64,000 nt of DNA. Origin: Eubacterium sp. AB3007. GTDB taxonomy: Bacteria > Bacillota > Clostridia > Peptostreptococcales > Anaerovoracaceae. The position numbers were made by a program, and so were the translations under genes. The stretch lies in assembly GCF_000688015.1 (NCBI RefSeq), contig NZ_JIAD01000001.1, forward strand, positions 1,364,001 through 1,428,000, written 5' to 3'. The notes under the pieces were generated by a model. It ran no database searches. It saw nothing but the letters and a program-made list of their open reading frames with translations, and was not told the DNA's origin. This document shows positions 4,872 to 64,000 of this stretch, one piece after another (the first letter of the stretch is position 1; the number at the start of each line of letters is the position of its first letter).

Positions 4872-5522
4872 TTAGTGAACCGGTCCGAGCTTTGTCAGTG
4901 GCCATATCCGGAAAACGATTTTTCCGACTATTTGCTCTGACGTTACGCATCCAACCGCCAGGTGTCGTGAATCAATAGATACGGAGCGGTTGTCTCCGAG
5001 CACGAACACCCTGCCATCCGGAACCTGGTACGGAAAGTCGATATCCGGCTCTCCAAACGCCTTATGATCGAGATAAGGCTCATCGATCCGCTGTTGGTTC
5101 ACAAAGACATTTCCATCGAGATCTATGTCTACCCAATCACCAGAGTTGGCGATCACTCTCTTCACCAGCACGTTGTTGTTATAGTAGAAGGCGATCACAT
5201 CGCCTGTTTGGAAACTGGATCCCTTCACGGCCACCACCAGTTCGCCGCTGGTTAGTGTGGCGTTCATGGACTGGCCGTAGATCCGCAGCACCGGCAGAAG
5301 CAACATGGAAATCAGCACCGCGATGGCGGCGACCACGATCAGAATGTTGGTCGTACTGACGATAGACTGCTTGAGATTGTATCGGTAGAGGACCTTCTCG
5401 TAGGCGGTCTGTATATCTGCGGTCGCCGGAAGCTCTACCTCCTTCTGAGGATCCTGTGCCTGCGCCGTGGCAGTGTTCACCAGCGTTTCCATGACCTCAC
5501 GCTCGCTACTCATCCCGCTCAT
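4872..5522 (-). CDS. Signal peptidase I (pilus-locus type)
   Basis: About 216 aa from the ATG behind AGGAGGAAGT. N-terminal cytosolic part, one membrane segment (about residues 58-80), then S26 peptidase boxes: GQSMNATL with the catalytic Ser, VLVKRVIANSGDWVDI with the catalytic Lys, and VLGDNRSVSIDSRHLAVG. It cleaves signal peptides. A dedicated copy inside a pilus locus is common in Gram-positive bacteria, where it can be needed for pilin export or polymerisation. The start overlaps the upstream small gene by 17 bp, so the two are coupled. Confidence 0.88.
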   Translation of the reverse strand: MSGMSSEREVMETLVNTATAQAQDPQKEVELPATADIQTAYEKVLYRYNLKQSIVSTTNILIVVAAIAVLISMLLLPVLRIYGQSMNATLTSGELVVAVKGSSFQTGDVIAFYYNNNVLVKRVIANSGDWVDIDLDGNVFVNQQRIDEPYLDHKAFGEPDIDFPYQVPDGRVFVLGDNRSVSIDSRHLAVGCVTSEQIVGKIVFRIWPLTKLGPVH

Positions 5523-5808
5523 ACTTCCTCCTGATATTCTCCAGGTAGGTAACGGCGGCTTCCTCTGCATCCTTGAAGATACCTGTGATCTCCAGAGATG
5601 CCTGTGCGAGCGATCCGATCTCGCTGAAATCGATTTCACGACTGGCCAACTTGGCCTCCAGTTCAGCGTTCTGCTCCCGCAGCCGGTCGATCTCTCTGCC
5701 TTGGGCCAGCATGATCTCCAGGAGTTCCTTCCGCTTCAGCTTGGACAGGGGCTTGTCAGCCTTACCCTCCGGCATCCCGGCTGTCTTTTTCTTATTGAAT
5801 ACGCTCAT
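5506..5808 (-). CDS. Small coiled-coil protein at head of pilus operon
   Basis: 100 aa, start ATG preceded by GGGAG. A Lys-rich N-terminus is followed by a predicted coiled coil (REIDRLREQNAELEAKLASR) and a helical C-terminus containing AAVTYLENIRRKYE. No signal peptide or membrane segment. I do not recognise a named family; similar small coiled-coil proteins accompany signal peptidase genes in clostridial pilus loci, so a role in pilus export or septal positioning is only an inference. First gene of the operon, about 160 nt downstream of a strong promoter. Confidence 0.65.
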   Translation of the reverse strand: MSVFNKKKTAGMPEGKADKPLSKLKRKELLEIMLAQGREIDRLREQNAELEAKLASREIDFSEIGSLAQASLEITGIFKDAEEAAVTYLENIRRKYERDE

Positions 5809-5971
5809 ACTCCCTTTACCCAACGTCTTTCTCATCTTTTAATTAGACACCAAAAGGACTCTCTTCTCTAGTATCCTTAGTCAAAGCCCTAACCCTGTTG
5901 CGTCTAATACCGAAGACAATCTGTTTATAATCGTAATTATACCGAAATGATGTCGGCTTAACTTTATGGTA

Positions 5972-6000
5972 ATTATAGCATCATATTATTTGTGAGTCAA
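5972..6000 (-). promoter_or_regulatory. Sigma-A promoter of the pilus operon
   Basis: Reads TTGACT - 17 bp - TATAAT on the minus strand, near consensus, about 165 bp upstream of the first pilus gene. The long AT-rich leader leaves room for post-transcriptional control. Confidence 0.8.
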
Positions 6001-6206
6001 GAAAAAACAGACAATTCTATCATTTCGCACTATAGTACAGTAAACCATTTTCTATTTTTGGACAAAAAGCCAATAATCATTGAAATACGAACATTTCCGA
6101 GATCTCAACATTCCGGTTATAAAGCCCCTCGGATGCCGTTCTCTCACCATGCTGCCCTTTGCTGATCCGGGAGTGCACGGTCGTCTCTGTGCACCCAACT
6201 GCCATC

Positions 6207-7754
6207 CTACTCCAATTCCCGCCGGATGCGCGCCCGCACGTCATCAAACAACAGCTCCTTGTTGTGCCGATAATACGCCTCGCACCCGAAATTCTCCACG
6301 AACCAGCTGGTATCCGCGCCGGCGGTGATCTCGGTGACAAACATAACCATCTCCTGGCCCTGTCCCAGCGCCTCCTCCAGGAAGCGGAAGGTGTTGTCAA
6401 AGCACGCCCCGGTCTGGTCAGCCAACGCCTTTCTACGGTCACTGACAGCCGCCATCGTCTCCCGCGCGACCTCCATCGCCTCCTCGCGGCACAAAGCCTT
6501 CCCGTCCTCTTCCTTCTCCCGGAGGCCGTCCATGATCTCTTCCAAAACCTGGATCTCCCTCTGGATCTGTTCCTTTCTTTCCTTACTGAGCTGGCCGGCA
6601 GCGGCGGCGCGTTTCCATTGGCGCCGCCGTTCCTCGGCGATGCCGTCCAACAAAGGCAGGGGTTCCGGCTGGTGCGTACTGGCAGCAGGTTCGCCCGTGG
6701 GAACGCCCTCCAGGCGTCCCCTGAAAGTTTTCAGGTCGGCGAACACGGCATCAGCCAGCGCTTCCTGCCGGCGGGTCTGCCCCGCCAACTCCGAAAGACG
6801 CGACACCAGAAGGCCCATAACGGATAGTTTCTCGTCAAAAGGTGCCGACCGCAGCTGGGTAAGCGCAACTTTTTCCCAGCTGCCGCTCAATACTTCCTCC
6901 ACATGATAGGTCCGCTGATACTTATAATAGAGATCCAGGTAGGCGGCAAAATCTTTTGCAATTTCCGGCATCTGGATGTACTGCTCGATCACCGTGCGGT
7001 CCACACGAAGGCCGAGTTTTTCGTAGGCCAGGATCAGCTCGCTGAGATCCTCCCAGCCTCTGGCGGTGGCAAATCGCATCCCGTCCTGGGTGTTTTCCAG
7101 CCGGTAGAAGTTTTCTTTCTTGATATCCAGATAGCTGATCACCGCGCCATGAACACCCTTTGCGCGGGCGTACTCCTTCCAGACGCCGAGATCCTCCTCC
7201 ACGTCGATGCGCTTGACCCTGTCCAGGGTGACCACGTCGAACTCCCGGGCACTGCGGTTGTACTCAGGCGGATTGCCCGCCGCCACGATAAGCCATCCCT
7301 CTGGCATGCTCCGATTCCCAAATGTCTTGCACTGGAGGAACTGGAGCATCACCGGCGCCAGCGTTTCCGATACGCAGTTGATCTCGTCCAGGAACAAAAT
7401 CCCCTCCCGAACACCAGTCTGCTCCATCAAATCGTAAACGGAAGCCAGTATCTCGCTCATGGTGTATTCGGTGATGGGCACCTCCTGCCCGTCATATGTC
7501 CGATGCTCTATATACGGTAAGCCAATGGCGCTCTGCCTGGTATGGTGGGTGATGGTGTAGGCCACCAGCCCCACCCCGGTGTCCGCCGCGATCTGCTCCA
7601 TGATCTGCGTCTTACCGATGCCCGGCGGCCCCATCAGCAGCACCGGTCGCTGCCGGATGGTGGGGATCAGATAGTTCCCCAGCTCGTCTTTCGTCAGATA
7701 GGCACGAAGCGTGTCTTCGATCTGCTGCTTCGCCTGCTTGATATTCATCGCCAT
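6207..7754 (-). CDS. MoxR-type AAA+ ATPase
   Basis: 515 aa. AAA+ core with Walker A GPPGIGKT (42-49) and Walker B ILFLDEIN (119-126), sensor stretch AAGNPPEYN, then a helical lid. The C-terminal third (about 360-515) is charged and helical and is not part of the core ATPase. MoxR ATPases usually act as chaperones with a VWA-domain partner, and the VWA gene is the next one upstream on the same strand, separated by 200 bp holding a palindromic repeat. The start ATGGCGATG follows AAGGAGATAA. Substrate unknown. Confidence 0.85.
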   Translation of the reverse strand: MAMNIKQAKQQIEDTLRAYLTKDELGNYLIPTIRQRPVLLMGPPGIGKTQIMEQIAADTGVGLVAYTITHHTRQSAIGLPYIEHRTYDGQEVPITEYTMSEILASVYDLMEQTGVREGILFLDEINCVSETLAPVMLQFLQCKTFGNRSMPEGWLIVAAGNPPEYNRSAREFDVVTLDRVKRIDVEEDLGVWKEYARAKGVHGAVISYLDIKKENFYRLENTQDGMRFATARGWEDLSELILAYEKLGLRVDRTVIEQYIQMPEIAKDFAAYLDLYYKYQRTYHVEEVLSGSWEKVALTQLRSAPFDEKLSVMGLLVSRLSELAGQTRRQEALADAVFADLKTFRGRLEGVPTGEPAASTHQPEPLPLLDGIAEERRRQWKRAAAAGQLSKERKEQIQREIQVLEEIMDGLREKEEDGKALCREEAMEVARETMAAVSDRRKALADQTGACFDNTFRFLEEALGQGQEMVMFVTEITAGADTSWFVENFGCEAYYRHNKELLFDDVRARIRRELE

Positions 7755-7822
7755 ATCTATTATCTCCTTATTATGTCGATTCTCGTCATCTGGTTATCTC
7801 TGCTCTCCGCAAGCCATATGCT

Positions 7823-7865: not shown

Positions 7866-7955
7866 CCACACGTGCGCGCCCTCGCACAAAGCTTTGTGCA
7901 CGCGGCAGGCCGCCAGCATCGCACGATCGCTGCCCTCGCACGGTCGCCGCCATCG
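7866..7955. repeat. GC-rich degenerate array with inverted ACAAAGC pair
   Basis: Directly after the VWA stop codon, imperfect CGCAC/TCGC-type units repeat. A 16-bp perfect palindrome, GCACAAAGCTTTGTGC (7884-7899), is two copies of the window-wide ACAAAGC motif head to head. No gene here. Confidence 0.6.
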
Positions 7956-9368: not shown

Positions 9369-10508
9369 TTACAGTTCGTAGGTCTTCCGGCGCCCGGAGG
9401 GCGCCGGAGCCTGCTTGTGTTCTTCCTCCATCAGGACTGCCAGACAGTCGGTACGGCCCAGGCGGCGGGCGGTTTCGGCCGCCGCAGCAAGCAGCGAAGC
9501 GTCCGGGGCGGCGAGGCGCACCAACAGGGCCAGCTCACCGCTGCCTGCCGCGTCAATACCCGCTCCGGCCTCCATGCTCCCGCCTTCCAGAAGGTGCTCC
9601 GCCAGTTCCGAAAAATGATCTTTCACGTACTCCAGATAGGACTCTCGGTGCTCCGCCGTCAGCTCTACCGGGCGGCTAACCCGGTACCAGGCCATTCGGG
9701 CCGCCCGGGCCAGGTCTGTCTCCCGGCCCAGATAGGCCTTCCAAAGCCCGTCATAGTCGTGCCAGCTGAGACGCTTGTCCCGAAACACGTGTCTGTAGGG
9801 GTAGCCCGCCCCCTCGATGGTGTAGTCGAACTGACGGGCCTCGTTGTTTTCCGTGTAAAGCTCCAGATAGTCCGGGAAGACCAGCCGCGCTTCCTCGCGC
9901 CCGGCCCGGACCACCACCTCCATCTCTCCGGTGGTCTCCCCCACAAAAAACGCCATATTCGTACCGTCCAGTTCCATCCGCTGTCGCCGGAGCACGACCT
10001 GCTGCAAAGCCCGGCAGTTCATGAAACACGCCCTCTGCCAGCTGATCTCCCGATCCGCCAGCTCAATTCGCTGCATGCTCCTGCAGTTGAGAAAAGCATA
10101 ATCGCCCACCTCCCGGATCCCCTCCGGAAGCCGCAAGGACAGCATCTGACGGTTGCTCCACTGGTCCTCCTCCACCGGGGGAGTTCCGTCCGTGATCTCG
10201 ATCTCCTGGACCCCCGCCACATCGCTTGTATCCCATGGGTCCGCGGACAAAGCATGCCCGGCGATCTTCACCACCGGCAGCATGGGTGACATGGGGGCCC
10301 TGCCATTCTTCTGTCCAACTGATTCAGACAGGCCGACGGGCAGCGCCTCCGGCAGGACCGCGTGCCGGTCACAGGTTACGGCGCGGACGATCGTGACCTC
10401 ACTCGTGACCTCGCCTGCACGGTGACCTTCTCCGTGGCCTGCCTCCTTCCTCTCTTCCGTTATTACATACTGAAGGCGCCAGTTACCGAATCCAGTTATC
10501 TTTTTCAT
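9369..10508 (-). CDS. LRR_5 (BspA-like) leucine-rich repeat protein
   Basis: 379 aa from the ATG after AAGGAGAACGTG. The middle carries two to three BspA-type repeats (LRLPEGIREVGDYAFLNCRSMQRIELAD, given here by its parts LPEGIREVGDYAFLNC and RSMQRIEL). The rest is helical, with an Ala/Leu-rich C-terminal stretch resembling ankyrin-like helices (LALLVRLAAPDASLLAAAAE). No signal peptide, so it is probably cytosolic and may be the recognition or scaffold partner of the MoxR-VWA pair that follows it in the operon. First gene of that block; a 48-bp palindrome lies 49 bp 5' of the start. Confidence 0.7.
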   Translation of the reverse strand: MKKITGFGNWRLQYVITEERKEAGHGEGHRAGEVTSEVTIVRAVTCDRHAVLPEALPVGLSESVGQKNGRAPMSPMLPVVKIAGHALSADPWDTSDVAGVQEIEITDGTPPVEEDQWSNRQMLSLRLPEGIREVGDYAFLNCRSMQRIELADREISWQRACFMNCRALQQVVLRRQRMELDGTNMAFFVGETTGEMEVVVRAGREEARLVFPDYLELYTENNEARQFDYTIEGAGYPYRHVFRDKRLSWHDYDGLWKAYLGRETDLARAARMAWYRVSRPVELTAEHRESYLEYVKDHFSELAEHLLEGGSMEAGAGIDAAGSGELALLVRLAAPDASLLAAAAETARRLGRTDCLAVLMEEEHKQAPAPSGRRKTYEL

Positions 10509-10761: not shown

Positions 10762-11142
10762 TTACATCCCGTAATCCACGAACATGTTCAGGTTGTTCTG
10801 CTGAATGGCAGCGGAGATGAACCCCAGGCCGAACAGGCACAGGATCACACAAAGCAGCGTGTCATCCTCCAGGGCGTTGCCGTTGCGGTCTGCCACCCGA
10901 GCGACCCGTTTGGACAGATAGTACCAGTAGTAGATCCCGTAGAGTCCACAGGTGATCAGGGTCAGGATCACCACCAGTCCCGGAGTTGTCCCCGGCCGCT
11001 GTCCCTGTGCTTCCGTGATGAGGTTCCAATCGTCCGTCAGAACAAAGATCCAGTAAAGATAATAGATCCCGCAGGTGATGATCGTGAGCAGGATGCCGAC
11101 CCATATGCTCCTCTGCTTGATTTGCTTTGTGTAAGTGTCCAT
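10762..11142 (-). CDS. DUF4234 membrane protein
   Basis: 126 aa with three membrane segments (about 13-33, 53-75 and 96-115). The repeated TIITCGIYYLYW / TLITCGLYGIYYWYYL signature is that of DUF4234. Function unknown. It follows TelA by 27 bp and is probably the last gene of the XpaC-TelA-DUF4234 operon, suggesting a shared envelope-stress job (inference). Confidence 0.75.
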   Translation of the reverse strand: MDTYTKQIKQRSIWVGILLTIITCGIYYLYWIFVLTDDWNLITEAQGQRPGTTPGLVVILTLITCGLYGIYYWYYLSKRVARVADRNGNALEDDTLLCVILCLFGLGFISAAIQQNNLNMFVDYGM

Positions 11143-11169: not shown

Positions 11170-12360
11170 CTACTTCGAAGCCTGGGCTGCCTCCAGAAGC
11201 TTGGCCTTCAGCTGATTCTCGATAGCGGCCAGCTCTGTCTCTGCGGCAGCACGGCGATCCTTGCCTTCCTTCTGGATCCGCAGCACCTCATCCAGCGTAT
11301 CGATGAGCTTCTGGTTGGTGTGCTGCAGCGTCTCGATATCCACGATACCGCGCTCGGACTCCTTGGCGACTTCCACGGTGGCCATCTCCAGCGCGTCCGC
11401 GTTCTTCTTCAGCAGTTCGTTGGTCATATCGGAGACCGCCTTCTGGGCCTTGGCTGCCTGGGTTGAGTGCTCCACGCCCAGAGCGATGATCATCTGGTTC
11501 TTCCAGAGCGGGATGGTGTTCACGATGGTGGACTGGATCTTCTCTGCCATCTCGTTGTCCGCCGCCTGCACCATGCGGATCTGCGGTGCCGTCTGCATGG
11601 CAATGGTCCGGGTGGTGGTCAGGTCGAACAGCTTCTTCTCAAAACGCTCGCACTGCGCCGCCAGGTCCTTCGCCGCCTGGGCATCTTCCGGGGCGCCGGT
11701 CTGCCGCGCCTTCTCCTCCAGCGCCGCCAGCTGCTCTGTGCGCACCTGCTCCAGTTTCTTCTTACCGGCCACGATATACATGGTCAATTCCTTGAAATAC
11801 GTCATGTTGACCTCGTACATCTGGTCAAGCATGGCAGAGTCCTTCATGAGCTGCGTCTGGCGCGCGTCCAGTTCGTTCTCGATGGTGGTGACGTTGGTCT
11901 CGACCTTGTTGTATCTGGCCTTCAACGTCTCCAGCTTGTCTTTCTTCTTGCGGAAGAACCCAAAGAACCCGCCCTCGTCCTCCGGGTCGTCCAGGCTCTT
12001 CAGTTCCCCCATCAGCGTGGTGATCATCGCCCCCACCTCACCCATGTCCTTGGTCTTCACGTTGGCCAGGGTCTTGTTGGCAAACTCGGCGATGTTCTTC
12101 TGGGTGCCGGCGCCGTAGTTCATCACCGCGGCGGTGTCGCAAACGTCGATCTGCGGCACAAAGCTCTCCACCTGTGCCAGTTCCTTCTCAGTCAGGGAAT
12201 CTTCCAGACGGGATAACCCAGACTCGTCCGACTTCTGCTCCTCAGCGACCACCGGAAAACTCGGTGCCTGCGGAATCTCTGTCATGCCCTCGACCTGCGG
12301 CGTCTCGCCCTTATCGATCACAAGCTGTGGTGTTTTGATGTCATCAATCTTATTTTCCAT
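11170..12360 (-). CDS. telA: TelA-family toxic anion resistance protein
   Basis: 396 aa, almost entirely helical, with long coiled coils (about 95-330) and TelA landmarks GGFFGFFRKKKDKLE, YNKVETNVTTIENELD and the final QLKAKLLEAAQASK. The family is linked to tellurite, nisin and other envelope-stress tolerance in Firmicutes and occurs with XpaC homologues. Here the XpaC-like gene overlaps the start by 11 bp, so the two are coupled. No membrane segment, so it probably works at the inner face of the membrane. Mechanism not established. Confidence 0.85.
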   Translation of the reverse strand: MENKIDDIKTPQLVIDKGETPQVEGMTEIPQAPSFPVVAEEQKSDESGLSRLEDSLTEKELAQVESFVPQIDVCDTAAVMNYGAGTQKNIAEFANKTLANVKTKDMGEVGAMITTLMGELKSLDDPEDEGGFFGFFRKKKDKLETLKARYNKVETNVTTIENELDARQTQLMKDSAMLDQMYEVNMTYFKELTMYIVAGKKKLEQVRTEQLAALEEKARQTGAPEDAQAAKDLAAQCERFEKKLFDLTTTRTIAMQTAPQIRMVQAADNEMAEKIQSTIVNTIPLWKNQMIIALGVEHSTQAAKAQKAVSDMTNELLKKNADALEMATVEVAKESERGIVDIETLQHTNQKLIDTLDEVLRIQKEGKDRRAAAETELAAIENQLKAKLLEAAQASK

Positions 12361-13807
12361 TGTTAACCTCCTCGTTGCTTACGATTCCCTCGAAAGGATT
12401 TGCTTTGTGCATGCCGTCCTCCATCAGACCGTCCTGCTGGAACATGGTCTTCATGGCGGAGATGTCCGCCGATACGTCCCAGGCCACATCCTGATAAAGG
12501 CTGTCCAGAAGCACCACATAGGCGTTGTTGATGGTGTCCATCGCCCCTTCGATCTCTTGCTTGGTATCTCTGATATTCTCGCCTTCCACCGGTTGGTTCT
12601 CGATGTCGATGTAGGCGTTGATCAGCTTACGGGTGGTGGGCAGATACTGGTTCATGAACCGGCGAAGGGTACGTGCGCTGCCCGGTGCCTCCTGCACCCT
12701 GTCGAAGATCCGGGAGACCACCTGCTCCAGCTCGGTGAGTCGCCGTTTCATCTCTGGATCTTTGACCCGGGCCTGGGCATTGGCCAGATCCCCCAGGAAG
12801 ACGTCCCCCTCGGAAAGGATGCCGCGCACCTGAGCGGCCAGGGCGGGATCCATGGACTCCAGATTCTTCCCGACTTCTGCCTGTTTCCGCTTGGCGCTTT
12901 CGCTGGCCTCCTTGGCCTGGGTATACTGTTTGTAGGCCTTGGAACTGAGGATCAGCGTCTTGCCGCTGTCATCAAAAGTAGCATGGGGCAGCATTCTCCG
13001 TTTGATCATTCGTTCCAGGTTCTTGCGGACTGTCTTCTCTGACTCGCCGGCGTGTTTTGCCAGGTCCTTGATGTCGATGTACTCCTCTCGCCCGATGATG
13101 GACGCATATTTATAGAAGGTGTCGGTGATTCCCTTCCCGACGAATCCGATGCCGAACAAAATCAGAAATCCCAGCAGAAAGGCCGCGCGCACGCCCAGCC
13201 CCGCCAGGTTGTCCATGGAGATGACGCCCTCCTCTGTCAGGGAAGCAAGCATCATCAGCATGCCTACGATCCCAACACCACAAAGCCCGATGTTATTTCC
13301 CTTCCCCGGTGTCCTCAGCATGAAAGGCACGGGGCCTGCATAGGGACGACCATACCGGGGTCTGGCCTTGGACTGGTACTGGGGTTTGACCTGCTGCCCT
13401 TGCGGGCGAGCGTTGTTGAAGGCGGCGCCTGCCTGCTGTCCTTGCGGGCGAGCGTTGTTAAAGGCGGCGCCTGCCTGCTGCCCTTGCGGGCGAGACTGCG
13501 CCTGGCTTTGTGCATGCGGCTGGCTTTGTGCATGCGGCTTGGGGCGAGACTGCGCCTGCGCGTGGCTGCCGCACCCAAAATCCACCTTGGGACTGTTATT
13601 GCTGTGATCCAGATCGTTGATGTCATATCTAGGCCCCGCAGGAGTCTTGCCGAAGTTGAACCCCTGTGCCTTCAGGTCATCGGCGAACACCCGAAAATCC
13701 TCCCGGATCCCGTCTGCCAGGCCGCTGAAATCTTCCTGATCGATGGCGCTGGAGACTCTGCCCATGACTTTGTCACCGAGATCGGTCATATTATCTACGT
13801 AGCTCAT
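12350..13807 (-). CDS. XpaC-like protein (5-bromo-4-chloroindolyl phosphate hydrolysis family)
   Basis: About 485 aa from the ATG after GGAGGAGAGA. An N-terminal helical region is followed by a low-complexity Gln/Ala/Ser/Pro-rich stretch (about 85-145) with three direct copies of ARPQGQQAGAAFNN-like units, two membrane segments (about 175-220), then an XpaC-like helical domain. The name derives from an old phosphatase phenotype; true activity is unknown. XpaC-TelA pairs are typical of stress operons in Firmicutes. The repeats, 13385-13560 at DNA level, probably expand and contract; they also carry two ACAAAGC motifs. Confidence 0.78.
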   Translation of the reverse strand: MSYVDNMTDLGDKVMGRVSSAIDQEDFSGLADGIREDFRVFADDLKAQGFNFGKTPAGPRYDINDLDHSNNSPKVDFGCGSHAQAQSRPKPHAQSQPHAQSQAQSRPQGQQAGAAFNNARPQGQQAGAAFNNARPQGQQVKPQYQSKARPRYGRPYAGPVPFMLRTPGKGNNIGLCGVGIVGMLMMLASLTEEGVISMDNLAGLGVRAAFLLGFLILFGIGFVGKGITDTFYKYASIIGREEYIDIKDLAKHAGESEKTVRKNLERMIKRRMLPHATFDDSGKTLILSSKAYKQYTQAKEASESAKRKQAEVGKNLESMDPALAAQVRGILSEGDVFLGDLANAQARVKDPEMKRRLTELEQVVSRIFDRVQEAPGSARTLRRFMNQYLPTTRKLINAYIDIENQPVEGENIRDTKQEIEGAMDTINNAYVVLLDSLYQDVAWDVSADISAMKTMFQQDGLMEDGMHKANPFEGIVSNEEVNNGK

Positions 13808-15649: not shown

Positions 15650-16147
15650 TCACTCCTGCAATGGCTTCGGATCTGTCACCTTGACCTTGTGGTCGTACCA
15701 GTTGCCGTGGGTCCCGATCAGCGCCACATCGAACTCCTGGTCGATGGCCGGCACCGGGATATCGAACCCGTAGACGGTCTGCTTGTACCCATCGTCGTAG
15801 GTAACCTGATCCTCTGTCGGTTGGATGAGCTCCGCTCCATCCTTCTGCGCGTCTTTCTTCTTTCCGTAGAACAGATTGGTGATGCGCTTGGACTGCAGCG
15901 TCACATGGATGGTCATCTGGCCATCCTTCACGGTGAGGATTCCCTGGTCGTTCTTTGACTCGTTCACGTGGAACATACTGCTGTCCGTGGTGAACGTTGC
16001 GGTGTACTGACCATCTGTCAGGCCCGCCTTCTCCGCAGGGCTTTGTGTACCGCCGCTGCAGGCACAAAGCACGGTTCCCAGGGAGAGCAGCAGCAGGCAG
16101 ATCACCAGCAGCCGCCCCTTCAAAGCTAATTGTCTGAACATCCCCAT
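15650..16147 (-). CDS. Lipoprotein with a single NEAT-like domain, paired with secreted CbiK
   Basis: 165 aa. Lipoprotein signal with lipobox LCAC (Cys30), then one beta-sandwich domain: YTATFTTDSSMFHV, ILTVKDGQMTIHVTL, LFYGKKKDA, FDIPVPAID and NWYDHKV. The same order of motifs occurs twice in the protein at 22898-23986, so the domains are paralogous and each is linked to a cobaltochelatase gene. The pattern resembles NEAT-type or related haem-binding surface domains, but I cannot confirm that. It directly abuts the CbiK stop codon and is part of the riboswitch-controlled operon. Confidence 0.65.
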   Translation of the reverse strand: MGMFRQLALKGRLLVICLLLLSLGTVLCACSGGTQSPAEKAGLTDGQYTATFTTDSSMFHVNESKNDQGILTVKDGQMTIHVTLQSKRITNLFYGKKKDAQKDGAELIQPTEDQVTYDDGYKQTVYGFDIPVPAIDQEFDVALIGTHGNWYDHKVKVTDPKPLQE

Positions 16148-17408: not shown

Positions 17409-17439
17409 TCTCGTAAAAAACCAAATACACAACCCATTG

Positions 17440-17640
17440 CTCGTGGCGGGGTCTCCCCCTCCTGATGGTCGGTCTCCTGAGTTACAGATCTACGCGCCAG
17501 CCTCCTTCCCGGTCTCCCAGTGGTATAATGGCCATTGCTCCCTGATTACAGTAACGAGAACTCTGCAGGAATCTCACCTGCTTCCCGGTGGCAGGCTCTC
17601 CCGAAGGACAAAGCCTGTTCCCCATCAGTTGTATTCATCA
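17440..17640 (-). ncRNA. Cobalamin riboswitch
   Basis: On the minus strand the conserved blocks of the B12 element are seen in order: CACCGGGAAGCAGGTGAGAT, TCCTGCAG, GTTACTGTAATC, CCACTGGGAGACCGGGAAGG and, near the 3' end, AACTCAGGAGACCGACCATC. It lies between its own promoter (17647-17675) and a terminator stem ahead of the lipoprotein cbiK. Expected to repress that gene and the following lipoprotein when B12 is plentiful. Confidence 0.92.
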
Positions 17641-32043: not shown

Positions 32044-32069
32044 CGATGAAGGGTCTGGCACCACACAAA

Positions 32070-43700: not shown

Positions 43701-43763
43701 TCGCTGCCCGGTGGCGGGCGTTGGGCGATGGGGCGGCGAAGGCTTTGTGCGAAAGGAACTGAC

Positions 43764-45104: not shown

Positions 45105-45129
45105 CAAAGCCTTCGTCCTGTGCGATACT
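45101..45129 (+). promoter_or_regulatory. Promoter of the secreted-protein gene
   Basis: TTGACA - 17 bp - GATACT; the -35 box contains the MATE stop codon TGA and an ACAAAGC motif. Confidence 0.7.
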
Positions 45130-52431: not shown

Positions 52432-52481
52432 CCGCTTTTCCGGAGCACAAAGCCTGAAGCGCATGCCTCTTCACGCTTTGG

Positions 52482-53216: not shown

Positions 53217-55154
53217 TTAATATAGTTTTGCGCCTGCCGGGATGTCTTTGTCCAGCATGATGAAGTCAAGTTCTTCCTTGCCCTCGTAGTCGTAGAGCAT
53301 GGAGCAGAGCATGCCGTTGGACTCGACGCCCATCATCTTCCGCGGCGGCAGGTTGGTGATCGCCAGGGCGGTCTTTCCTACCAGCTCCTCTGGCTCATAC
53401 CAGGGGTGGATGCCGCTGAGGATGATGCGGTCGGTGCCGGAGCCGTCGTTGCAGACGAACTTCAGCAGCTTGTCGCTCTTGGGAACTGCCTCACAGGCCT
53501 TGATCTTCACGGCGCGGAAGTCGGACTTGCTGAAGGTCTCGAAGTCCACCACTTCCTCGAACAGAGGCTCTACCTTCACCTTGGACAGGTCGATCTCCTT
53601 CTTCTCGTGGATAATCTTGCCTTCTGGTTTCATGGTCGGGAACAGGATGATGTCGCGGATGCTCTGGGAGTTGGTGATCAGCATGATCACTCTGTCCACA
53701 CCTACGCCCAGTCCGCCTGTCGGAGGCAGACCCACCTCGATGGCATTGACAAAGTCCAGATCCATCGGGTGGGCTTCATCATCGATGCCGGCGTTCAGCT
53801 CTGCCTGCTGCTCGGCGAAACGCTCGTACTGGTCGATGGGGTCATTCAGCTCGGAGAAGGCATTGGCGATCTCCCAACCGTTGATGTATGCCTCAAAACG
53901 TCTGGTGATGCGAGGATCCTTAGGATCTCTCTTGGCCAGCGGGGAAACCTCCACCGGATGCCCTACCACGAACACAGGCCCATCCAGGTAGCCCGGAACG
54001 TCCTCGCAGTATTCCTCAAAGAACTCCGCGATCAGCTTGCCACGGTTACCCAGAGCCTTTGCTTCTTCCTCATCCATACCGTACTCGATGGCGGCGGCGA
54101 CAGCATCCTCGTCGTTATCGATCTTGTTGAAGTCCACGCCGGTGATCTCCTTGACGGCATCGGTCATGTTCAGGCGTCTCCAGGGCGGAGTCACGTCGAA
54201 TTCCTTGCCCTGGTAGTTCAGGATCGGAGTCCCGTTGACTGCCATCTGTGCTTTGTAGACCAGCTGCTCGGTGACATCCATGGTACTCTCCATGTTGCCG
54301 TAGGCCATGTAGCACTCCATGGAGGTGAACTCAGGATTGTGGTTCCGGTCCATGCCTTCGTTACGGAACATCTTGCCCATCTCGTAGACTCTGTCCAGAC
54401 CGCCGACGATCAGTCTCTTCAGGTAGAGCTCGTTGGCGATTCTCATATGAAGGGTCATGTTCAGGGTGTTGTGGTGGGTGGAGAACGGTCTGGCGTTGGC
54501 ACCACCTGCGATCGGAGTCAGGATCGGGGTGTCCACTTCCATGTATCCATAATCCTCCTCCAGGACCCTCTTCATCTCGTGGATAATCTTGGTTCTCTTC
54601 ATGAAGGTCTCACGAACATCCTGGTTCATGATCAGATCCACGTAGCGCTGTCTATAGCGGATATCCTGGTCCTTCAGGCCGTTCCACTTGTCTGGCAGCA
54701 CCTGCAGAGACTTGGACAGAAGCACCAGTTTCTGCACGTGGATGGAGATCTCATCGGTCTTGGTCTTGAATACCAGACCCTCGATGCCTACGATATCACC
54801 GATGTCGTAGGTCTTGAACCACTTGTATTCCTCAGCGCCGATGTCGTCTCTCTTGATGTAGCACTGGATGCGGCCCTGCTTATCCTGAATGTCAAAGAAG
54901 GCAGCCTTACCCATGACGCGCTTGCTCATGATTCGACCGGCACAGGAGACCTCCTGGTCTTCGAGCGCCTCAAAATTATCCTTGATGTCCTGACTGTGCG
55001 CCGTCACGTCCCAGGTCTCATTCAGGTACGGATTGCGTCCTGCTTCCTGCAGATCCTTCAGTTTCTGCCTTCTGATCTTCCTCTGTTCGCTAAGATCCTG
55101 CTCGTACATGCCCTCCTCAGCGGGCGCTTGGTTCAGTCTGTCGTCTGTACTCAT
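53217..55154 (-). CDS. lysS: Lysyl-tRNA synthetase with C-terminal tRNA-binding domain
   Basis: 645 aa. Class II LysRS: OB-fold domain (about 60-160), catalytic core with RYRQRYVDLI, FRNEGMDRNHNPEFT and GLPPTGGLGVGVDRVIM. An added C-terminal domain (about 540-645: FSKSDFRAVKIKACEAVPKS, ITNLPPRKMMGVESNGM) is the Trbp111/EMAP-type tRNA-binding fold also found at the end of MetRS. This appended domain should raise tRNA affinity. It is uncommon on bacterial LysRS but found in some anaerobes. Confidence 0.95.
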   Translation of the reverse strand: MSTDDRLNQAPAEEGMYEQDLSEQRKIRRQKLKDLQEAGRNPYLNETWDVTAHSQDIKDNFEALEDQEVSCAGRIMSKRVMGKAAFFDIQDKQGRIQCYIKRDDIGAEEYKWFKTYDIGDIVGIEGLVFKTKTDEISIHVQKLVLLSKSLQVLPDKWNGLKDQDIRYRQRYVDLIMNQDVRETFMKRTKIIHEMKRVLEEDYGYMEVDTPILTPIAGGANARPFSTHHNTLNMTLHMRIANELYLKRLIVGGLDRVYEMGKMFRNEGMDRNHNPEFTSMECYMAYGNMESTMDVTEQLVYKAQMAVNGTPILNYQGKEFDVTPPWRRLNMTDAVKEITGVDFNKIDNDEDAVAAAIEYGMDEEEAKALGNRGKLIAEFFEEYCEDVPGYLDGPVFVVGHPVEVSPLAKRDPKDPRITRRFEAYINGWEIANAFSELNDPIDQYERFAEQQAELNAGIDDEAHPMDLDFVNAIEVGLPPTGGLGVGVDRVIMLITNSQSIRDIILFPTMKPEGKIIHEKKEIDLSKVKVEPLFEEVVDFETFSKSDFRAVKIKACEAVPKSDKLLKFVCNDGSGTDRIILSGIHPWYEPEELVGKTALAITNLPPRKMMGVESNGMLCSMLYDYEGKEELDFIMLDKDIPAGAKLY

Positions 55155-55675: not shown

Positions 55676-58600
55676 TTATTCTCTGTTCGCATCCACGAAT
55701 CTCTTGATCTTATGTCCAGTCGTCTTTTCAAAATCCTCATCTCGGACGATTACGTGCTTGATTTTCTTGAAGAGCGGCAGGTCCTCGTTGATCTCATCTA
55801 CCGCCGCCTGCACAAGCGCCTCTGCCTCTTCCTTCTTGAAGCTCTCTCCCAGCGCCTCCTGGAGCTCCTCGGCGTCCAGCGTCACCGTAGCATTGATGGT
55901 CGTCTCATTGGATCCATCCTTGTCACCGCCCCAGACCATGCTCTCTGCGATGTACGGCACCTGGGCCAGGTAGTTCTCCAACTCCTCCGGGAACACGTTC
56001 TTCCCGTTAGCAGTGATGATGACGTTTTTCTTTCGGCCGGTGATATAGATGAATTTCTCCTCATCCACGTACCCAAGGTCACCGGTGTAGAACCAGCCGT
56101 CCCGGAGCACCTTGGCGGTCTCTTCCGGCTGGTTATAGTAACCAAGCATCACGTTGCGTCCCTTCAGGCAGATCTCTCCGATCCCCTGCTCGTCCTTGTC
56201 CACTACCTTCACATCCATGCCCGGCAGCAGGTGTCCCACCGATGCGTTGCGCATGTACTTGTGGCGATCCGGGTTCAGCGCTGCCATGGGGCTGCACTCC
56301 GTCAACCCGTATCCCTGCACGGACACAAAGCCTACCTGGTTGAAGAACTCCAGGATCTCCGGATCGATGGCCGCACCACCGGAAATGATAACGCGCATCC
56401 TGCCACCGAAAGTGTCGTGGATCTCCTTGACGAAGGGCTTCAGGATATTCAGACCGACCTTGCCGGTAAGCCGGTTCATGGCCAATAGCCTCCGGAAAGT
56501 GTCTTCTTTGCCTTTCTTTCGGATTTCCTTCCAGATACGCTTGTAGAGTGCCTCGATAATCAGAGGCACCGCCAGCAACATGGTCGGATGCAGCTCCTGC
56601 ATGTCGCTCTGAATGTACTTCAGGCCCTGGCAGTATCCGATGGATGCGCCCTTGTAGAGCGGCATCAGAAAGTCGCAGGTGCACTCGTAGGTGTGATGGA
56701 TCGGGAGCACGGAGAAGAACATATCCTCCGGCCCCACATCCAGGATCGTCGGCGCGGACATCAGGTCGTCGCAAAGGTTGGTGTGGGACAGCATGACGCC
56801 CTTGGAGACACCGGTGGTCCCCGATGTATAAAGGATCACGGTCATCTCGTCCGGATCGATCTCCGCATCCAGGAACTGGCGATCTCCCTTGGCCAGCTGG
56901 GCGTTTCCGTCCTTAATGAGGTCTGCCCAGGCCAGGACACCCTCCTCCTGATCAGCCTCTGTGAAGCAGATCAGGGTCTCCAGGGAGGTGGCTTTGTCCT
57001 TCCGCATGCGGAGGAACATGTCCTTGTATTTCTTCTCGAATACCACCGCTGAGACCTCAGCATCGATCACCAGTTGTTTCAGCTCGCTTTCGGAAAGTTC
57101 CTTGTCCAGAGGAACCACGACGCCGGTACCGCAGATGGTGGCCAGATAACTGGTGCCCCACTCATAGCAGTTCTTGCCGATGACAGCGATCCGCTTGCGG
57201 CGCAGGCCCAGATTGTGGAAGGCTGTGCCCAGCGCATTGATGTCGCTATACATCTCGTTGTAGGTGATCTCCCGGAAGGCCTCCTTCCGGTCGAATTTCT
57301 GGTAGACTGCCGGCCGCTTACCGTAGAGATCCACGCTTGTGGACAGCATGTGCCGGATATCCATGATGGCACGGCTTTTCTTGTGGACCACATATGGATC
57401 GGTGCTTGTGAGCAGTTCCTGTTCTCTTTCCTTGGCCCGGTGCATGGCCTTGCGCACGATCTCGCTGTTGCGGACCCTGCCTTCGCCCTGCTTCTGTCCG
57501 GTCACGGTGGTCATCTTGTTTCCAAAGCGCTTGATCTTACCGGTGGTGGTCTTCTCAAACTCCTTCTCCCGGATGTTGATGCGCTTGATCCGCTTGTACT
57601 GCGGCAGCTTATTGTTGATGTGATCGATAAGTTCCTTGAAGAAATAGTAGACTTCGCTGGAATTCATCTCACCTTTTGCTTTCTTGAGGGCTTTGTAGTC
57701 GGGATAGATATCCGCGGTGATCATCACATTGCCGGCACGTTCGTCATCCACGCCGTAGACCAGTGTCTCCGCGATGTATGGTTCTTCCAGCAGTACAGTT
57801 TCCACCTCTTCCGGGAAGATGTTCTTCCCGCCCTTGGTGACGATCACGGTCTTCTTGCGGCCGGTGAGATAGATGAATCCGTCCTTGTCCATGTATCCCA
57901 GGTCACCGGTGTGGAGCCATTCCCCATGGATCGCCTCCCGGGTGGCTTCTTCGTTCTCGTAGTAGCCCATCATGACCGAAGGCCCTCTGGCGATGACCTC
58001 GCCAATGCCGTCCTCGTCCTGGTCGATGATTCGGACATCGGTACCCGGCATAGCCCTGCCCACGGATGCTGCCTTGCTATAGCGATCCTGGTTCACGGCC
58101 ACGATCGGGGAACACTCCGTCATGCCGTATCCCTGGATCATGTTGAATCCCATGGCCTCAAAGTCTTCGATGACTTTCGGGTCGATGGCAGCACCGCCCG
58201 CCACAAACTTCTCCATATGGCCGCCGAAGGAATTGTGGACAGCCTTGAACATGCGTTTCATGAGGGCACGGTTGTTGTACAGCCCCATTCGCCGGGAAAG
58301 GTCGATGGCTCTGCGCAGCTTCTCTTCCTCGCCACGGCTGGCTGCCTGCTTGAACATGCCCTTGTGCATCTTCTCAAATACCAGAGGTACGCCCAGCATA
58401 ACGTTGGCCTTAGTCTCGGCCATGTTCTTCTGAATGTATTTCAGGCCCTCACAGATGGCGATGGTCTGTCCCTGATAAAAGGTGGTCCAGATGGAACACA
58501 CCATCTCGTAGGCGTGATGTACCGGCAGAATCGACAGTACGATGCCTGGGTCAGGGATGCGGAACATCTTGGACATGTTCATGACATTGGCCGCGATGTT

Positions 58601-59292: not shown

Positions 59293-59496
59293 CCGGAAAT
59301 CAGCGACCGGACAGGGATCGGAGCAAGATCCGGAAAATGCGTGTAGTGGCCAAAACATAAAAATAAGGAAGCCTGCCCATATCACCCGCGATTCTGGAGG
59401 GCATGAGATCCGGAGATATCCGACAAAGCTTCACTGCCACTGTCAACCATCTCGGCCAGGCGAGACATCTGATCGACCTGAAATCGGAGTTTCATG

Positions 59497-60243: not shown

Positions 60244-62589
60244 ATGGAAACCATCGAACGCATTGTTAAGCGCGACGGAAGAGTCGTCGACTTTGACATC
60301 GACAAGATCACCGATGCCATTTTCAAGGCGGCCCAGGTGCTGGGCGGAAAGGACAAGGCCATGTCCGCCTACCTGGCCAAGCAGGTAGAACTCTATCTGT
60401 TGGAGGTATGTCACAACGACACCCCGACCGTGGAACAGATCCAGGATGCCGTCGAGAAGATCCTGATCGAGAACGGTCACGCCAGAACTGCCAAGGAATA
60501 CATCCTCTACCGTGCAGAACGTACACGCATCCGTGACATGGACACCAAGCTGATGCACATCTATGAGGATCTGACCTTCAAGGAAGCACAGGAGATCGAC
60601 GTCAAGCGTGAGAACGCCAACATCGACGGGAACACCGCCATGGGCACCATGCTGAAGTACGGATCCGAGGGCGCCAAGGAATTCTACAAGATGTACGTCA
60701 TCGATCCCAAGTACGGCAAGGCCCACGAGAACGGAGACATCCACATCCACGACATGGACTTCTATACGCTGACCATGACCTGCTGCCAGATCGATCTGGT
60801 CGACCTCCTGAAGGACGGCTTCTCCACCGGACACGGTCACCTGAGAGAGCCCAACGACATCGAGAGTTACGCAGCACTGGCCTGCATCGCCATCCAGTCC
60901 AACCAGAACGACCAGCATGGCGGGCAGTCCATCCCCAACTTTGACTACAGCATGGCACCGGGCGTCCGGAAGGCCTACAAGCGCCTCTACTGGACCAACC
61001 TGGGCAAGATGCTGGAGCTCCTCTACAACATCGAGAACGGCGCGGACAAGCTGAAAAAGTTCGGTGCCGAGGTGGAGGAGAAGACCGGCGATGTGCCGTG
61101 CATGGCCTGGGACAACAATTACAAGGCGATCGAGCTGAAGATGCTGGAGACCATCGGCGACAAAGCCACCATGGAGCGCCTCCAGGACAAGGCCAAGCTC
61201 TTCGCCGATAGAGAGATCGTCCGGAAGACCTACCAGGCGATGGAGGCCCTGATCCACAACCTGAACACTATGCACTCCAGAGCCGGTGCCCAGGTGCCCT
61301 TCAGTTCCATCAACTACGGGACCGACACCTCCATGGAAGGCCGTTTGGTCATGAAGTGCATCATGGAAGCCACCGAGGCCGGTCTGGGCTTTGGCGAGAC
61401 TCCTATTTTCCCGATCCAGATATTCAAGGTCAAGGAAGGCGTCAGTTACAACCCGGAGGACCCCAACTACGATCTGTTCAAGCTGGCCTGCAGAACCAGC
61501 GCCAAGCGGCTGTTCCCGAACTTCTCGTTCCTGGACGCACCATTCAACCTGCAGTACTACAAGCCAGGTCACCCGGAGACCGAGTGCGCTTACATGGGAT
61601 GCCGCACCAGAGTCATCGCCAACGTGCATGACCCCTCCAGAGAGATCGTTTACGGAAGAGGCAATCTGTCCTTCACGTCCATCAACCTGCCCCGCCTGGC
61701 CATCAAGGCCAGAGGCGATCAGGAGATCTTCTTTGAGAGCCTGGACCACATGATCGACCTGTGCATCGGACAGCTGAAGGAACGCTTCCACATCCAGTCC
61801 CAGAAGAAAGTCAAGAACTTCCCCTTCCTCATGGGTCAGGGTGTCTGGATCGACTCCAAGAAACTGGGACCGGAGGACACCATCGAGGAGGTCATCAAGC
61901 ACGGAACGCTGACCGTTGGCTTCATCGGTCTGGCAGAATGCCTGAAGTCCCTGATCGGCGTCCACCACGGCGAGTCCGAGGAAGCACAGAAACTCGGAAT
62001 TGAGATCGTCGCTTACATGAGAAAGCGTATGGACGAGGAGGCCCGGAAGACAGGCCTGAACTTCTCCCTGATCGGAACCCCGGCAGAGGGGCTGTCCGGC
62101 CGTTTCGTGAAGATCGACCGGGAGCGCTACGGCGTGATCGAGGGGGTCACCGACAGAGACTACTACACCAACAGCTTCCATGTTCCTGTTTACTACAACA
62201 TCAACGCCTTCGACAAGATCCGCCGCGAGGCACCTTACCACGAATTGACCAACGGCGGCCACATCTCCTATATCGAGCTGGACGGAGATCCACTGAAGAA
62301 CCTGGATGCCTACGAGGCTGTGGTCCGCTGCATGAAAGAGAGCGGCATCGGCTACGGCTCCATCAACCACCCGGTGGACAGAGATCCCTGTTGCGGCTAT
62401 ACCGGCATCATCGACAACGAGTGCCCCCAGTGCGGGCGCAGAGAAGATGACGGCGAGCCCAAGTTCGAGCGCATCCGTCGCATCACCGGTTACCTGGTAG
62501 GTACCATGGATAACTGGAACGACGCCAAGACTGCCGAGGAGGCTGACCGCGTCAAACACAGTGTTGACAGCGGTATGGAGCAGCTGTAA
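60244..62589 (+). CDS. nrdD: Anaerobic ribonucleoside-triphosphate reductase
   Basis: 781 aa from the ATG preceded by AAGGAGAAC. ATP-cone (about 1-95: RIVKRDGRVVDFDIDKITDA), a ten-strand glycyl-radical barrel, zinc cysteines in CCGYTGIIDNECPQCGRRE, and the glycyl-radical loop RRITGYLVGTMDNW near the C-terminus. Makes dNTPs without oxygen after activation by NrdG. Full length. The only ribonucleotide reductase in the window; controlled by an NrdR box. Confidence 0.97.
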   Translation: METIERIVKRDGRVVDFDIDKITDAIFKAAQVLGGKDKAMSAYLAKQVELYLLEVCHNDTPTVEQIQDAVEKILIENGHARTAKEYILYRAERTRIRDMDTKLMHIYEDLTFKEAQEIDVKRENANIDGNTAMGTMLKYGSEGAKEFYKMYVIDPKYGKAHENGDIHIHDMDFYTLTMTCCQIDLVDLLKDGFSTGHGHLREPNDIESYAALACIAIQSNQNDQHGGQSIPNFDYSMAPGVRKAYKRLYWTNLGKMLELLYNIENGADKLKKFGAEVEEKTGDVPCMAWDNNYKAIELKMLETIGDKATMERLQDKAKLFADREIVRKTYQAMEALIHNLNTMHSRAGAQVPFSSINYGTDTSMEGRLVMKCIMEATEAGLGFGETPIFPIQIFKVKEGVSYNPEDPNYDLFKLACRTSAKRLFPNFSFLDAPFNLQYYKPGHPETECAYMGCRTRVIANVHDPSREIVYGRGNLSFTSINLPRLAIKARGDQEIFFESLDHMIDLCIGQLKERFHIQSQKKVKNFPFLMGQGVWIDSKKLGPEDTIEEVIKHGTLTVGFIGLAECLKSLIGVHHGESEEAQKLGIEIVAYMRKRMDEEARKTGLNFSLIGTPAEGLSGRFVKIDRERYGVIEGVTDRDYYTNSFHVPVYYNINAFDKIRREAPYHELTNGGHISYIELDGDPLKNLDAYEAVVRCMKESGIGYGSINHPVDRDPCCGYTGIIDNECPQCGRREDDGEPKFERIRRITGYLVGTMDNWNDAKTAEEADRVKHSVDSGMEQL

Positions 62590-63241: not shown

Positions 63242-63269
63242 AAAAGACCGCCTGACGGCGGTCTTTTCT
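63242..63269 (+). terminator. nrdDG terminator
   Basis: AAAAGACCGCC and its complement with loop TGAC, ending in TTTTCT, 24 bp after the nrdG stop. Confidence 0.9.
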
Positions 63270-63322
63270 GGGGTAATTTTATTCATTATTGTATTGTAAG
63301 CGAACTATGTTCAGCGCACTTC

Positions 63323-63351
63323 TTGACTTATGATACTTTAGACCGTATAAT
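63323..63351 (+). promoter_or_regulatory. Promoter of the lysR-type gene
   Basis: TTGACT - 17 bp - TATAAT, 48 bp before the start. Confidence 0.78.
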
Positions 63352-63369
63352 AAGTAAAACGGTTTTTTC

Positions 63370-63384
63370 TTATACTTGATATAA
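63370..63384. promoter_or_regulatory. Candidate LysR operator
   Basis: TTATACTTGATATAA, a 15-bp inverted repeat of the T-N11-A type, between the promoter and the start codon; likely autoregulatory. Confidence 0.5.
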
Positions 63385-63398
63385 GGGCATATTATAGC

Positions 63399-64000
63399 AT
63401 GGATAACAGGAAATATGAGGCTTTGTTGCTGGTCGCAGAGCACGGCAGCATCACACGAGCCTCCGAGATCATGGGATATACGCAATCCGGGATCACGCAG
63501 ATGATCAACAGTCTGGAGAAGGATCTGGGGATCAAGCTGCTCACCCGTACCAACAAGGGCGCCGTACTGACCAACGCCGGCAAACGGCTCCTGCCCTATA
63601 TGCGGCAGGAGAACAAGTGGGAGAACCACATCCGCCAGGAGTGCGCCAACATGCGCGGACTGGAGACAGGCTCCGTCACCGTCGGCTGCCTGTCCAGCAT
63701 CAGTGCCGCCTGGATGCCAGATATCCTTAAGCACTTCGCCGAGAAGCACCCCGGCATCAAGGTCTACATGCGTGAGGCAGAATCCGAGGCCATCGAGGAA
63801 CTACTGCTCGGCGGCCGGATCGACGTGGCCATTACTGAACTCAAGAAAAAGAAAGCCTACGAGGCGAAGACCCTTCGCCAGGATGAGATTTTTGCTATCC
63901 TTCCCCATGGCCACGAGCTAGCGAACCGTGAGACACTGACCCTGAAGGAACTGACCAGTTATCCCTTCATTTCATACAGTACGGGAGATGCGGGAGCAGA
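63399..64000 (+). CDS. LysR-family regulator, cut by window end
   Basis: The first 200 residues are present. N-terminal winged HTH (ALLLVAEHGSITRASEIMGY, TQSGITQMINSLEKDLGIKL) and most of subdomain 1 of the effector domain (VTVGCLSSISAAWMPDILKH). The ribosome site is weak (AAGGG, 13 nt upstream). Target genes not visible; it is not divergent from a neighbour as many LysR genes are. Confidence 0.9.
   Translation, partial: MDNRKYEALLLVAEHGSITRASEIMGYTQSGITQMINSLEKDLGIKLLTRTNKGAVLTNAGKRLLPYMRQENKWENHIRQECANMRGLETGSVTVGCLSSISAAWMPDILKHFAEKHPGIKVYMREAESEAIEELLLGGRIDVAITELKKKKAYEAKTLRQDEIFAILPHGHELANRETLTLKELTSYPFISYSTGDAGA

Follow-up and report, generated by a model that had tools for sequence, protein, structure and literature searches.

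The stretch analysed here, called the window, comprises 64,000 nucleotides of Eubacterium sp. AB3007 (assembly GCF_000688015.1, contig NZ_JIAD01000001.1, positions 1,364,001 to 1,428,000), and its most over-represented 7-mer was ACAAAGC, which occurred 63 times versus 7.25 expected from an order-2 Markov model. In 100 dinucleotide shuffles of the window, the same word appeared 6.38 ± 2.18 times and at most 12 times, in agreement with the approximately six copies that an earlier note on this DNA had calculated by hand. That note had interpreted ACAAAGC as a DNA uptake sequence (DUS), and its count of 63 copies (34 plus, 29 minus) and their coordinates were reproduced exactly. All copies, each of them an exact match, are given below with window coordinates and strand (ORF, open reading frame).

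Copy 1: 4889..4895, minus; inside the signal-peptidase ORF of the sortase-pilus cluster
Copy 2: 6491..6497, plus
Copy 3: 7886..7892, plus; half of palindrome ACAAAGCTTTGT with copy 4
Copy 4: 7891..7897, minus; other half of palindrome ACAAAGCTTTGT with copy 3
Copy 5: 10247..10253, plus
Copy 6: 10849..10855, plus
Copy 7: 11124..11130, minus
Copy 8: 12158..12164, plus
Copy 9: 12402..12408, minus
Copy 10: 13280..13286, plus
Copy 11: 13505..13511, minus; within an 18-bp tandem repeat
Copy 12: 13523..13529, minus; within an 18-bp tandem repeat
Copy 13: 14871..14877, plus
Copy 14: 16040..16046, minus
Copy 15: 16064..16070, plus
Copy 16: 17608..17614, plus
Copy 17: 18884..18890, plus
Copy 18: 19440..19446, minus
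Copy 19: 19899..19905, minus
Copy 20: 20209..20215, plus
Copy 21: 20824..20830, minus
Copy 22: 22568..22574, plus; half of palindrome with copy 23
Copy 23: 22573..22579, minus; other half of palindrome with copy 22
Copy 24: 22696..22702, plus
Copy 25: 23932..23938, plus
Copy 26: 24439..24445, minus
Copy 27: 24785..24791, plus
Copy 28: 26744..26750, plus; half of palindrome with copy 29
Copy 29: 26749..26755, minus; other half of palindrome with copy 28
Copy 30: 28637..28643, plus
Copy 31: 30545..30551, plus
Copy 32: 31521..31527, plus
Copy 33: 32065..32071, plus
Copy 34: 32440..32446, plus
Copy 35: 33530..33536, plus
Copy 36: 33804..33810, minus
Copy 37: 34113..34119, minus
Copy 38: 34748..34754, plus
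Copy 39: 35923..35929, minus
Copy 40: 36318..36324, plus
Copy 41: 37265..37271, plus
Copy 42: 38156..38162, minus
Copy 43: 38623..38629, minus
Copy 44: 39097..39103, minus
Copy 45: 41380..41386, minus
Copy 46: 42133..42139, plus; forms an inverted pair with copy 47, placed outside ORFs by the crude calls
Copy 47: 42154..42160, minus; inverted pair with copy 46
Copy 48: 43742..43748, minus
Copy 49: 44038..44044, plus
Copy 50: 44753..44759, minus
Copy 51: 45020..45026, minus
Copy 52: 45104..45110, plus
Copy 53: 47227..47233, plus
Copy 54: 50038..50044, plus
Copy 55: 50608..50614, minus
Copy 56: 52447..52453, plus
Copy 57: 54250..54256, minus
Copy 58: 56325..56331, plus
Copy 59: 56991..56997, minus
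Copy 60: 57690..57696, minus
Copy 61: 59423..59429, plus
Copy 62: 61160..61166, plus
Copy 63: 63420..63426, minus

Three head-to-head pairs, which had been reported as intergenic, are present as the 12-bp palindrome ACAAAGCTTTGT, but only one of the three lies between ORFs by our crude calls, in which ORFs were assigned greedily by length without a gene caller.

The excess extends over the whole genome (one contig, 2,301,752 bases), in which ACAAAGC occurs 1467 times (744 forward and 723 reverse), 8.4 times as often as the reversed word of the same composition (174 = 79 + 95), giving a density of 0.64 per kb or about one copy per 1.6 kb. For further statistics the genome was sampled as 524 kb of stretches with 5-kb overlap, or 519 kb without overlap. 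ACAAAGC was again the top over-represented 7-mer (340 versus 57 in the 524-kb sample; 337 versus 56.4, about 6 times, in the 519-kb sample, order-2 Markov), so that the genome-wide count is far from the Markov expectation. Because its 21 one-mismatch neighbours stayed near expectation (0.39–2.25 times, same model, 519-kb sample), the seven-base core of the signal is sharp; no degenerate 'cloud' of near-matches turned up when one was sought. On the left side the copies of this sample are preceded by G (54%) and then C (50%) or G (30%), and on the right side they are followed by C (58%) and then a weak T at +8/+9, which confirms the context G(C/G)ACAAAGC(C) described earlier and adds the T. Since flank information is limited to these few bases, the copies look like independent sites rather than parts of a dispersed longer repeat.

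One simple source of such an excess would be codon, codon-pair or amino-acid usage or mutation bias, and the commonest frame, xAC-AAA-GCx, accounts for 82 of 282 coding copies; many genomes of the family also carry 1.5–3 times more ACAAAGC than reversed word. When synonymous codons were shuffled within genes, which preserves protein and codon usage, only 65.3 of those 282 coding copies were expected, and all six reading frames were enriched (2.5–15 times), most strongly in the rarest frames. The word was also somewhat denser outside ORFs (0.75 per kb) than inside (0.62 per kb), and a prophage stretch carried by this cell has no copy. These results bear out the earlier claim of a signal at the DNA level and refute codon bias as the source in strongly enriched genomes, for which we regard it as scarcely credible; such bias may underlie the weak ACAAAGC background of the family. 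Along genes the deciles were flat, and enrichment at gene ends was sought without finding any.

Strand preference was evaluated relative to leading and lagging strands defined by GC skew. In the 519-kb sample the copies were divided 156 leading and 181 lagging (p 0.19), or 144 and 177 when two stretches near the skew switch were left out (p 0.07), and the full GCACAAAGCC was divided 24 and 24; no polarity was found here or in the forward and reverse counts of the whole genome. This bears directly on a Chi-like AddAB recombination site or a guide resembling FtsK-orienting polar sequences (KOPS), enriched for protecting or directing the processing of broken forks. ACAAAGC resembles Chi in being short, non-palindromic and over-represented chromosome-wide, and its absence from a prophage stretch would fit; however, a site of this sort needs a fixed orientation with respect to the fork, and ACAAAGC differs from Chi in showing no orientation bias, whereas the same test applied to Chi in 100 kb of E. 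coli as a positive control gave 19:5 (p 0.007). As the word moreover changes between relatives (see below), we consider this explanation quite improbable. A different word of the same genome sample, GGGAGCA, occurred 174 times versus 73 under the synonymous shuffle with 116 leading and 51 lagging copies, and is, together with its occurrence in the relative G152, a candidate Chi- or KOPS-like site of the genus, its G-richness adding to the skew.

Spacing of ACAAAGC was near Poisson (mean 1.34 kb, coefficient of variation 0.97), and of the first 20 stretches sampled, 19 had a density of 0.5–1.0 per kb. The prophage stretch (L006, 575–595 kb, with portal, capsid and tape-measure genes) contained no copy in 20 kb, for which the chance at the genome rate is about 1.4e-6 for a given 20 kb; this is the outcome of the check on mobile islands that had been proposed. 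Two copy-free regions of the window had also been pointed out. The first, described as a pilus locus, indeed lacks copies up to 4888, but it encodes a pilus of the sortase (SpaH) type and no type IV pilus:

826-5639: sortase-type pilus cluster, with Cna_B protein (826-1965), sortase (1962-2843), SpaH/EbpB-like LPXTG pilin (3125-4738) and S26 signal peptidase (4872-5639)

This pilus, at the left end of the window, is therefore no part of an uptake machine. The second, at 47.2–50.0 kb, is a real gap but too short to mean much; it is the longest interior ACAAAGC-free gap, unremarkable in length, and contains an IS605-family OrfB/TnpB-like protein with a Cas12f1-like TNB domain (48229-49428, minus strand).

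Even density, strand neutrality and absence from the prophage stretch would also fit a word bound, at sites all along the chromosome, by a nucleoid or chromosome-segregation protein. Such a protein does not readily predict a sharp 7-bp core with one-mismatch neighbours near expectation, nor a word that changes between relatives in step with clades, and we judge this reading unlikely.

The relatives were placed by lysyl-tRNA synthetase (LysRS), for which the best matches of the window protein were an uncultured Eubacterium metagenome-assembled genome (MAG), L042 (93%), Hornefia butyriciproducens (86%) and Eubacterium minutum (83%). In a LysRS tree of 50 of 80 named loci plus the window, the window paired with L042 (100/99) and H. 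butyriciproducens came next; the nearest named genus is Hornefia (NCBI: Anaerovoracaceae, Peptostreptococcales, Clostridia). L042 also carries ACAAAGC (7 versus 1.2, in a sample of only 18 kb). Among 147 other genomes of the family, the word reached at most about 0.28 per kb and 0.4–4.6 times the reversed word. Within the 17 genomes of the genus, counted separately, G156 has 1305 copies (reversed 231; about 0.77 per kb) and the other 15 have 33–705, including G154 with 469 versus 52. The high density is accordingly not common to the family, and related but different words were found instead.

These words came from an unbiased k-mer ranking of sampled stretches (order-2 Markov), in which the top k-mers included AGCAAAGC(C) in G004, ACAAAGGA in G153 and G149, GAACAAAG in G152, GACAAAGG in G148, GAACAAAA in G142, GACAAAAA in G093 and ATCAAAGC in G155; unrelated words ranked beside or above them in G142, G152, G155 and others (as 7-mers or 8-mers), and no related word appeared in the sampled stretches of E. 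minutum (G158) or of G150, G151 and G160. A stricter ranking used the synonymous shuffle over 22 sets, of which one was an E. coli control and one a subset of another. With a cut at z 7.5, chosen after the table was seen, the top 7-mer exceeded the cut in 8 sets (G000, G142, G004, G155, G153, G205, the pooled GCAAAAGC loci and G191+G192) and contained CAAA in all of them, CAAA being present in 3.1% of 7-mers. Below the cut, the E. coli control topped at 6.8 and G152 at 7.2 (GGGAGCA), and G149, G152, G148, G093 and a small sample of G156 (33 kb) gave no standout. In G004, which is assigned to the same genus but stands apart from the window on the LysRS tree, GCAAAGC was 4 times denser between ORFs than inside and TTTGCAAA occurred 24 times versus 0.5 (G208, locus L086, is the same genome and was counted once).

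Another strong and clear-cut variant was GCAAARGCA, for which 9 of 50 named genomes had 545–1020 copies versus 39–74 reversed (12–19 times) and the other 41 had 23–303. These nine form one clade on the LysRS tree (support 100/100), and none of 148 family genomes approached their density. In the clade member G205, the copies were balanced between strands (135:137; 142 leading and 112 lagging, p 0.07), and CAAAGGCA was above expectation in every frame (44 versus 5.6 overall, some frames having few counts). Some of the relatives carry dialects on a CAAA core, resembling those of Neisseriaceae. A different kind of over-represented word was seen in other relatives, whose top 8-mers are palindromic (TAGTACTA, 10 versus 0.3 in L073; TGATATCA, 12 versus 1.1 in L065 and 8 versus 0.9 in L052).

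Regarding competence genes, which the earlier note had proposed to look for together with type IV pilus genes, ComEC (678 aa; its domains are DUF4131, Competence and Lactamase_B), ComEA (within a 228-aa open frame) and DprA (within a 334-aa open frame) are all present in the genome, but no type IV pilus motor was found. A search for T2SSE-family ATPases found one over the cut-off, of TadA type (410 aa), while three weaker matches under the cut-off fell within long frames of unrelated proteins, with no match to PilB, PilT or ComGA; ComP was not searched for. Neighbours of the tadA gene (C1:391755-392987) are a pair of T2SSF genes, an Flp-like pilin of 51 aa, a pair of TadE-like pilins and a DUF5702 protein that is found in 12 of 14 other loci of the genus compared. 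The last pilin of this operon, TadE-like and 258 aa long with pI 9.6, combines a pilin helix with a C-terminal part made of two zinc-ribbon modules (YHxxxC...CxxC), which may resemble the Ada zinc domain. Its Pfam matches were sub-threshold only, and PDB sequences gave only geopilin at E 0.55. On its anatomy this pilin is a candidate receptor; because it occurs in 16 of the 17 genus genomes, with a strong motif or without, its presence does not separate motif-rich from motif-poor genomes. PilB-grade matches (E below 1e-100) were found in 3 of the 17, namely G093, G142 and G155. ComEC, likewise examined as a correlate of the motif, is too widespread to discriminate: near universal, it occurs in 133 of 148 genomes of the family, 14 of 17 in the genus and 13 of 13 good assemblies of the genus; G151 (88% complete) gave no ComEC match. 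In the GCAAARGCA clade, no ComEC, ComEA or Tad genes were found in the sampled third of one genome or in the clade loci examined, where the only find was a small cluster of pilus-like genes at L183:1200-4914. It encodes a PilT-like ATPase of 350 aa, which matches the PilT-like ATPase of G142 at 42%, together with small membrane-anchored ORFs and a protein of 353 aa that was judged GspF-like by eye.

The genes beside comEC (L121:4120-8695) encode a restriction protein of GmrSD type (581 aa) and a type IIG-like protein (871 aa) with N6-methylase, HSDR_N and specificity domains. This neighbourhood raises the reading of ACAAAGC as a mark of self used in defence or by a system based on methylation, or as a methylation-dependent uptake mark of the kind found in Campylobacter. 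The word is non-palindromic and contains adenines, like targets of type I, III and IIG enzymes, and the N6-methylase gene (L121:6080-8695) is close at hand; however, a genome normally avoids the targets of its own restriction enzymes and does not accumulate them, and a link of this restriction-modification gene to ACAAAGC would be hypothetical. We hold the methylation reading to have a low probability.

Enrichment at the DNA level, strand neutrality, a prophage stretch without copies, the changing words of relatives and the competence genes and Tad operon of the genome are best accounted for, of the readings compared, by a DNA uptake sequence, and by analogy with the known systems ACAAAGC, in its extended form G[C/G]ACAAAGC[C], is probably one. 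The earlier interpretation is supported as a reading by the count above the Markov expectation, the lack of polarity and the density unequal among relatives. An uptake pilus would favour DNA of its own species by means of the tag: a sequence-reading pilin would capture double-stranded DNA bearing ACAAAGC, the pilus would retract, ComEA would hold the DNA, ComEC would pass one strand in, and DprA and RecA would recombine it. Because tagged alleles would be taken up and recombined more often, point mutations creating tags would accumulate on both strands, in and between genes, wherever they are tolerated; if the preference of the receptor shifted in a lineage, the word of the genome would consequently shift with it, giving dialects. 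Since no PilB, PilT or ComGA was found, the uptake pilus of this genome would be of Tad/Flp type, and, given an uptake sequence, we see the chances of the Tad pilus as its reader as about evenly balanced. What we infer is that tagged DNA is preferred in uptake, that a Tad pilus reads the tag, and which pilin may be the receptor.

Several observations weigh against an uptake sequence. The known DUS and uptake signal sequence (USS) systems use type IV pili, and none was found in this genome; the three genus genomes that do bear PilB have weaker motifs. The com genes are near universal, and their presence does not follow that of the motif from one relative to another: relatives lacking the motif (E. 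minutum G158, G160 and G150) have ComEC and ComEA too, whereas motif-rich G156, a MAG (83% complete, 6% contaminated, 300 contigs), has no ComEC, DprA or over-cut-off ComEA, and motif-bearing G154 (89% complete) has no ComEC match. Motif-bearing G004 and G153, both near-complete assemblies, show only a C-terminal stretch of DprA (G004:C27:6137-6265 and G153:C1:522904-523023, in frames of 131 and 156 aa), suggesting from the sequence that their dprA is truncated, split or diverged. The link between motif and competence is drawn from the gene content of the genome itself and from analogy, not from correlation. Depletion in mobile DNA comes from a single prophage stretch, a small sample, and inverted pairs are few, with 8 ACAAAGC palindromes in 519 kb, of which 2 lie between ORFs by crude calls. 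The CAAA core has competitors in the synonymous-shuffle ranking: among 8-mers, words lacking CAAA score up to z 9.7 (G158), 8.4 (E. coli) and 8.3 (G093), and among the 7-mers of G004, AGCAAAG (z 9.9) is equalled by CCCTTAA. Finally, ACAAAGC positions were kept in only 1 of 43 aligned copies over ten relatives, and in L042 in 0 of 6 versus 15 of 96 for anagram control words; positional conservation is uninformative here, because the relatives are only about 70–76% identical in the aligned parts.

Compared with known systems, ACAAAGC would work like the DUS of Neisseriaceae, which is found roughly once per kb or more densely, within genes as well as between them, in clade-wise dialects that keep a short core unchanged and that differ also through single-base insertion (PMC3630211); it differs in its unrelated word, its Gram-positive Clostridia host and in that no type IV pilus motor was found in this genome. 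Like the USS of Pasteurellaceae, it has variants within one family (PMC1626085; PMC5031613), but its word is unrelated and its distribution along genes is flat, whereas USS are enriched toward gene ends (PMC2346458). By eye, ACAAAGC is unrelated to GCCGTCTGAA and AAGTGCGGT as printed in PMC6370729 and PMC5031613. Because of the unrelated word and the absence of a detected type IV pilus, ACAAAGC is not filed in either family, DUS-like as its working would be. For its genome size, the copy number of ACAAAGC is similar to that of the Pasteurellaceae USS. HIP1-type repeats are palindromic, unlike ACAAAGC.

As for a machine without type IV pili, a review describes transformation of Micrococcus luteus with comEA and comEC but no comG, for which Flp pili are required (PMC6370729), and Tad-dependent DNA uptake with comEC has been reported in Liberibacter crescens (PMC8513845). 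Our genome resembles the former, as described there, in having ComEA, ComEC and a Tad cluster with no comG found, and the latter in having ComEC and a Tad pilus; it differs in carrying a genomic tag, as the consulted passages of these two papers mention no sequence preference. Strong sequence preference in uptake is described for two families, Pasteurellaceae and Neisseriaceae, both proteobacterial (PMC7811141; PMC5031613). Riemerella columbina prefers its own DNA, and candidate words were listed, untested by the authors (PMC7965970). In Veillonella parvula, a member of Firmicutes, uptake is biased by DNA source, a DUS being thought unlikely by the authors, whose genome screen gave no clear candidate and left open only words of 9 bp or less (PMC5397411). 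A literature search that did not extend to subscription papers and preprints turned up no established uptake sequence for Clostridia or other Firmicutes, in keeping with the earlier remark that none was known in Clostridia.

We tentatively propose, as possible though somewhat short of an even chance, a third, independently evolved uptake-sequence system and the first found in Gram-positives, extending over Anaerovoracaceae and kin with CAAA-core dialects and read by a Tad-type pilus (perhaps type IV or ComG-like in the GCAAARGCA clade), possibly through the zinc-ribbon TadE-like minor pilin. If this is true, uptake specificity would have arisen a third time, unrelated to the other two, among Gram-positive bacteria of the gut that have dialects and, in at least one lineage, no type IV pilus. 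Comparison could then test how such specificity evolves and which parts of the pilus do the reading. Clostridia of gut and rumen, little studied so far, would moreover be implied to exchange genes through transformation, with barriers between species, and a route to their genetic tractability would be suggested.

Other features of the window were noted along the way. A 26-bp palindrome, ATTAATCGCTAATATTAGCGATTAAT, lies at 7823-7848, 10568-10593, 25016-25041 and 32018-32043 (three perfect, one with a mismatch); its 22-bp core is found in 0 of 23 other sampled stretches of the genome, and it is possibly an operator or a small mobile repeat. A 40-bp hairpin, GTTCCATGCA...TGCATGGAAC, forms tandem arrays with a period of 53–54 bp (window 13995-14146, L013 2518-2827, L017 15107-15466), resembling repetitive extragenic palindromic (REP) hairpin arrays, with 53 half-sites in the 524-kb sample. 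A cobalamin riboswitch (17450-17639, minus strand; Rfam RF00174, 70.6 bits) lies upstream of a gene at 16148-17437 with a sub-cut-off match to sirohydrochlorin cobaltochelatase. An ORF of 1184 aa (55676-59230, minus strand) matches long-chain acyl-CoA ligases in both halves and is apparently a fused tandem.

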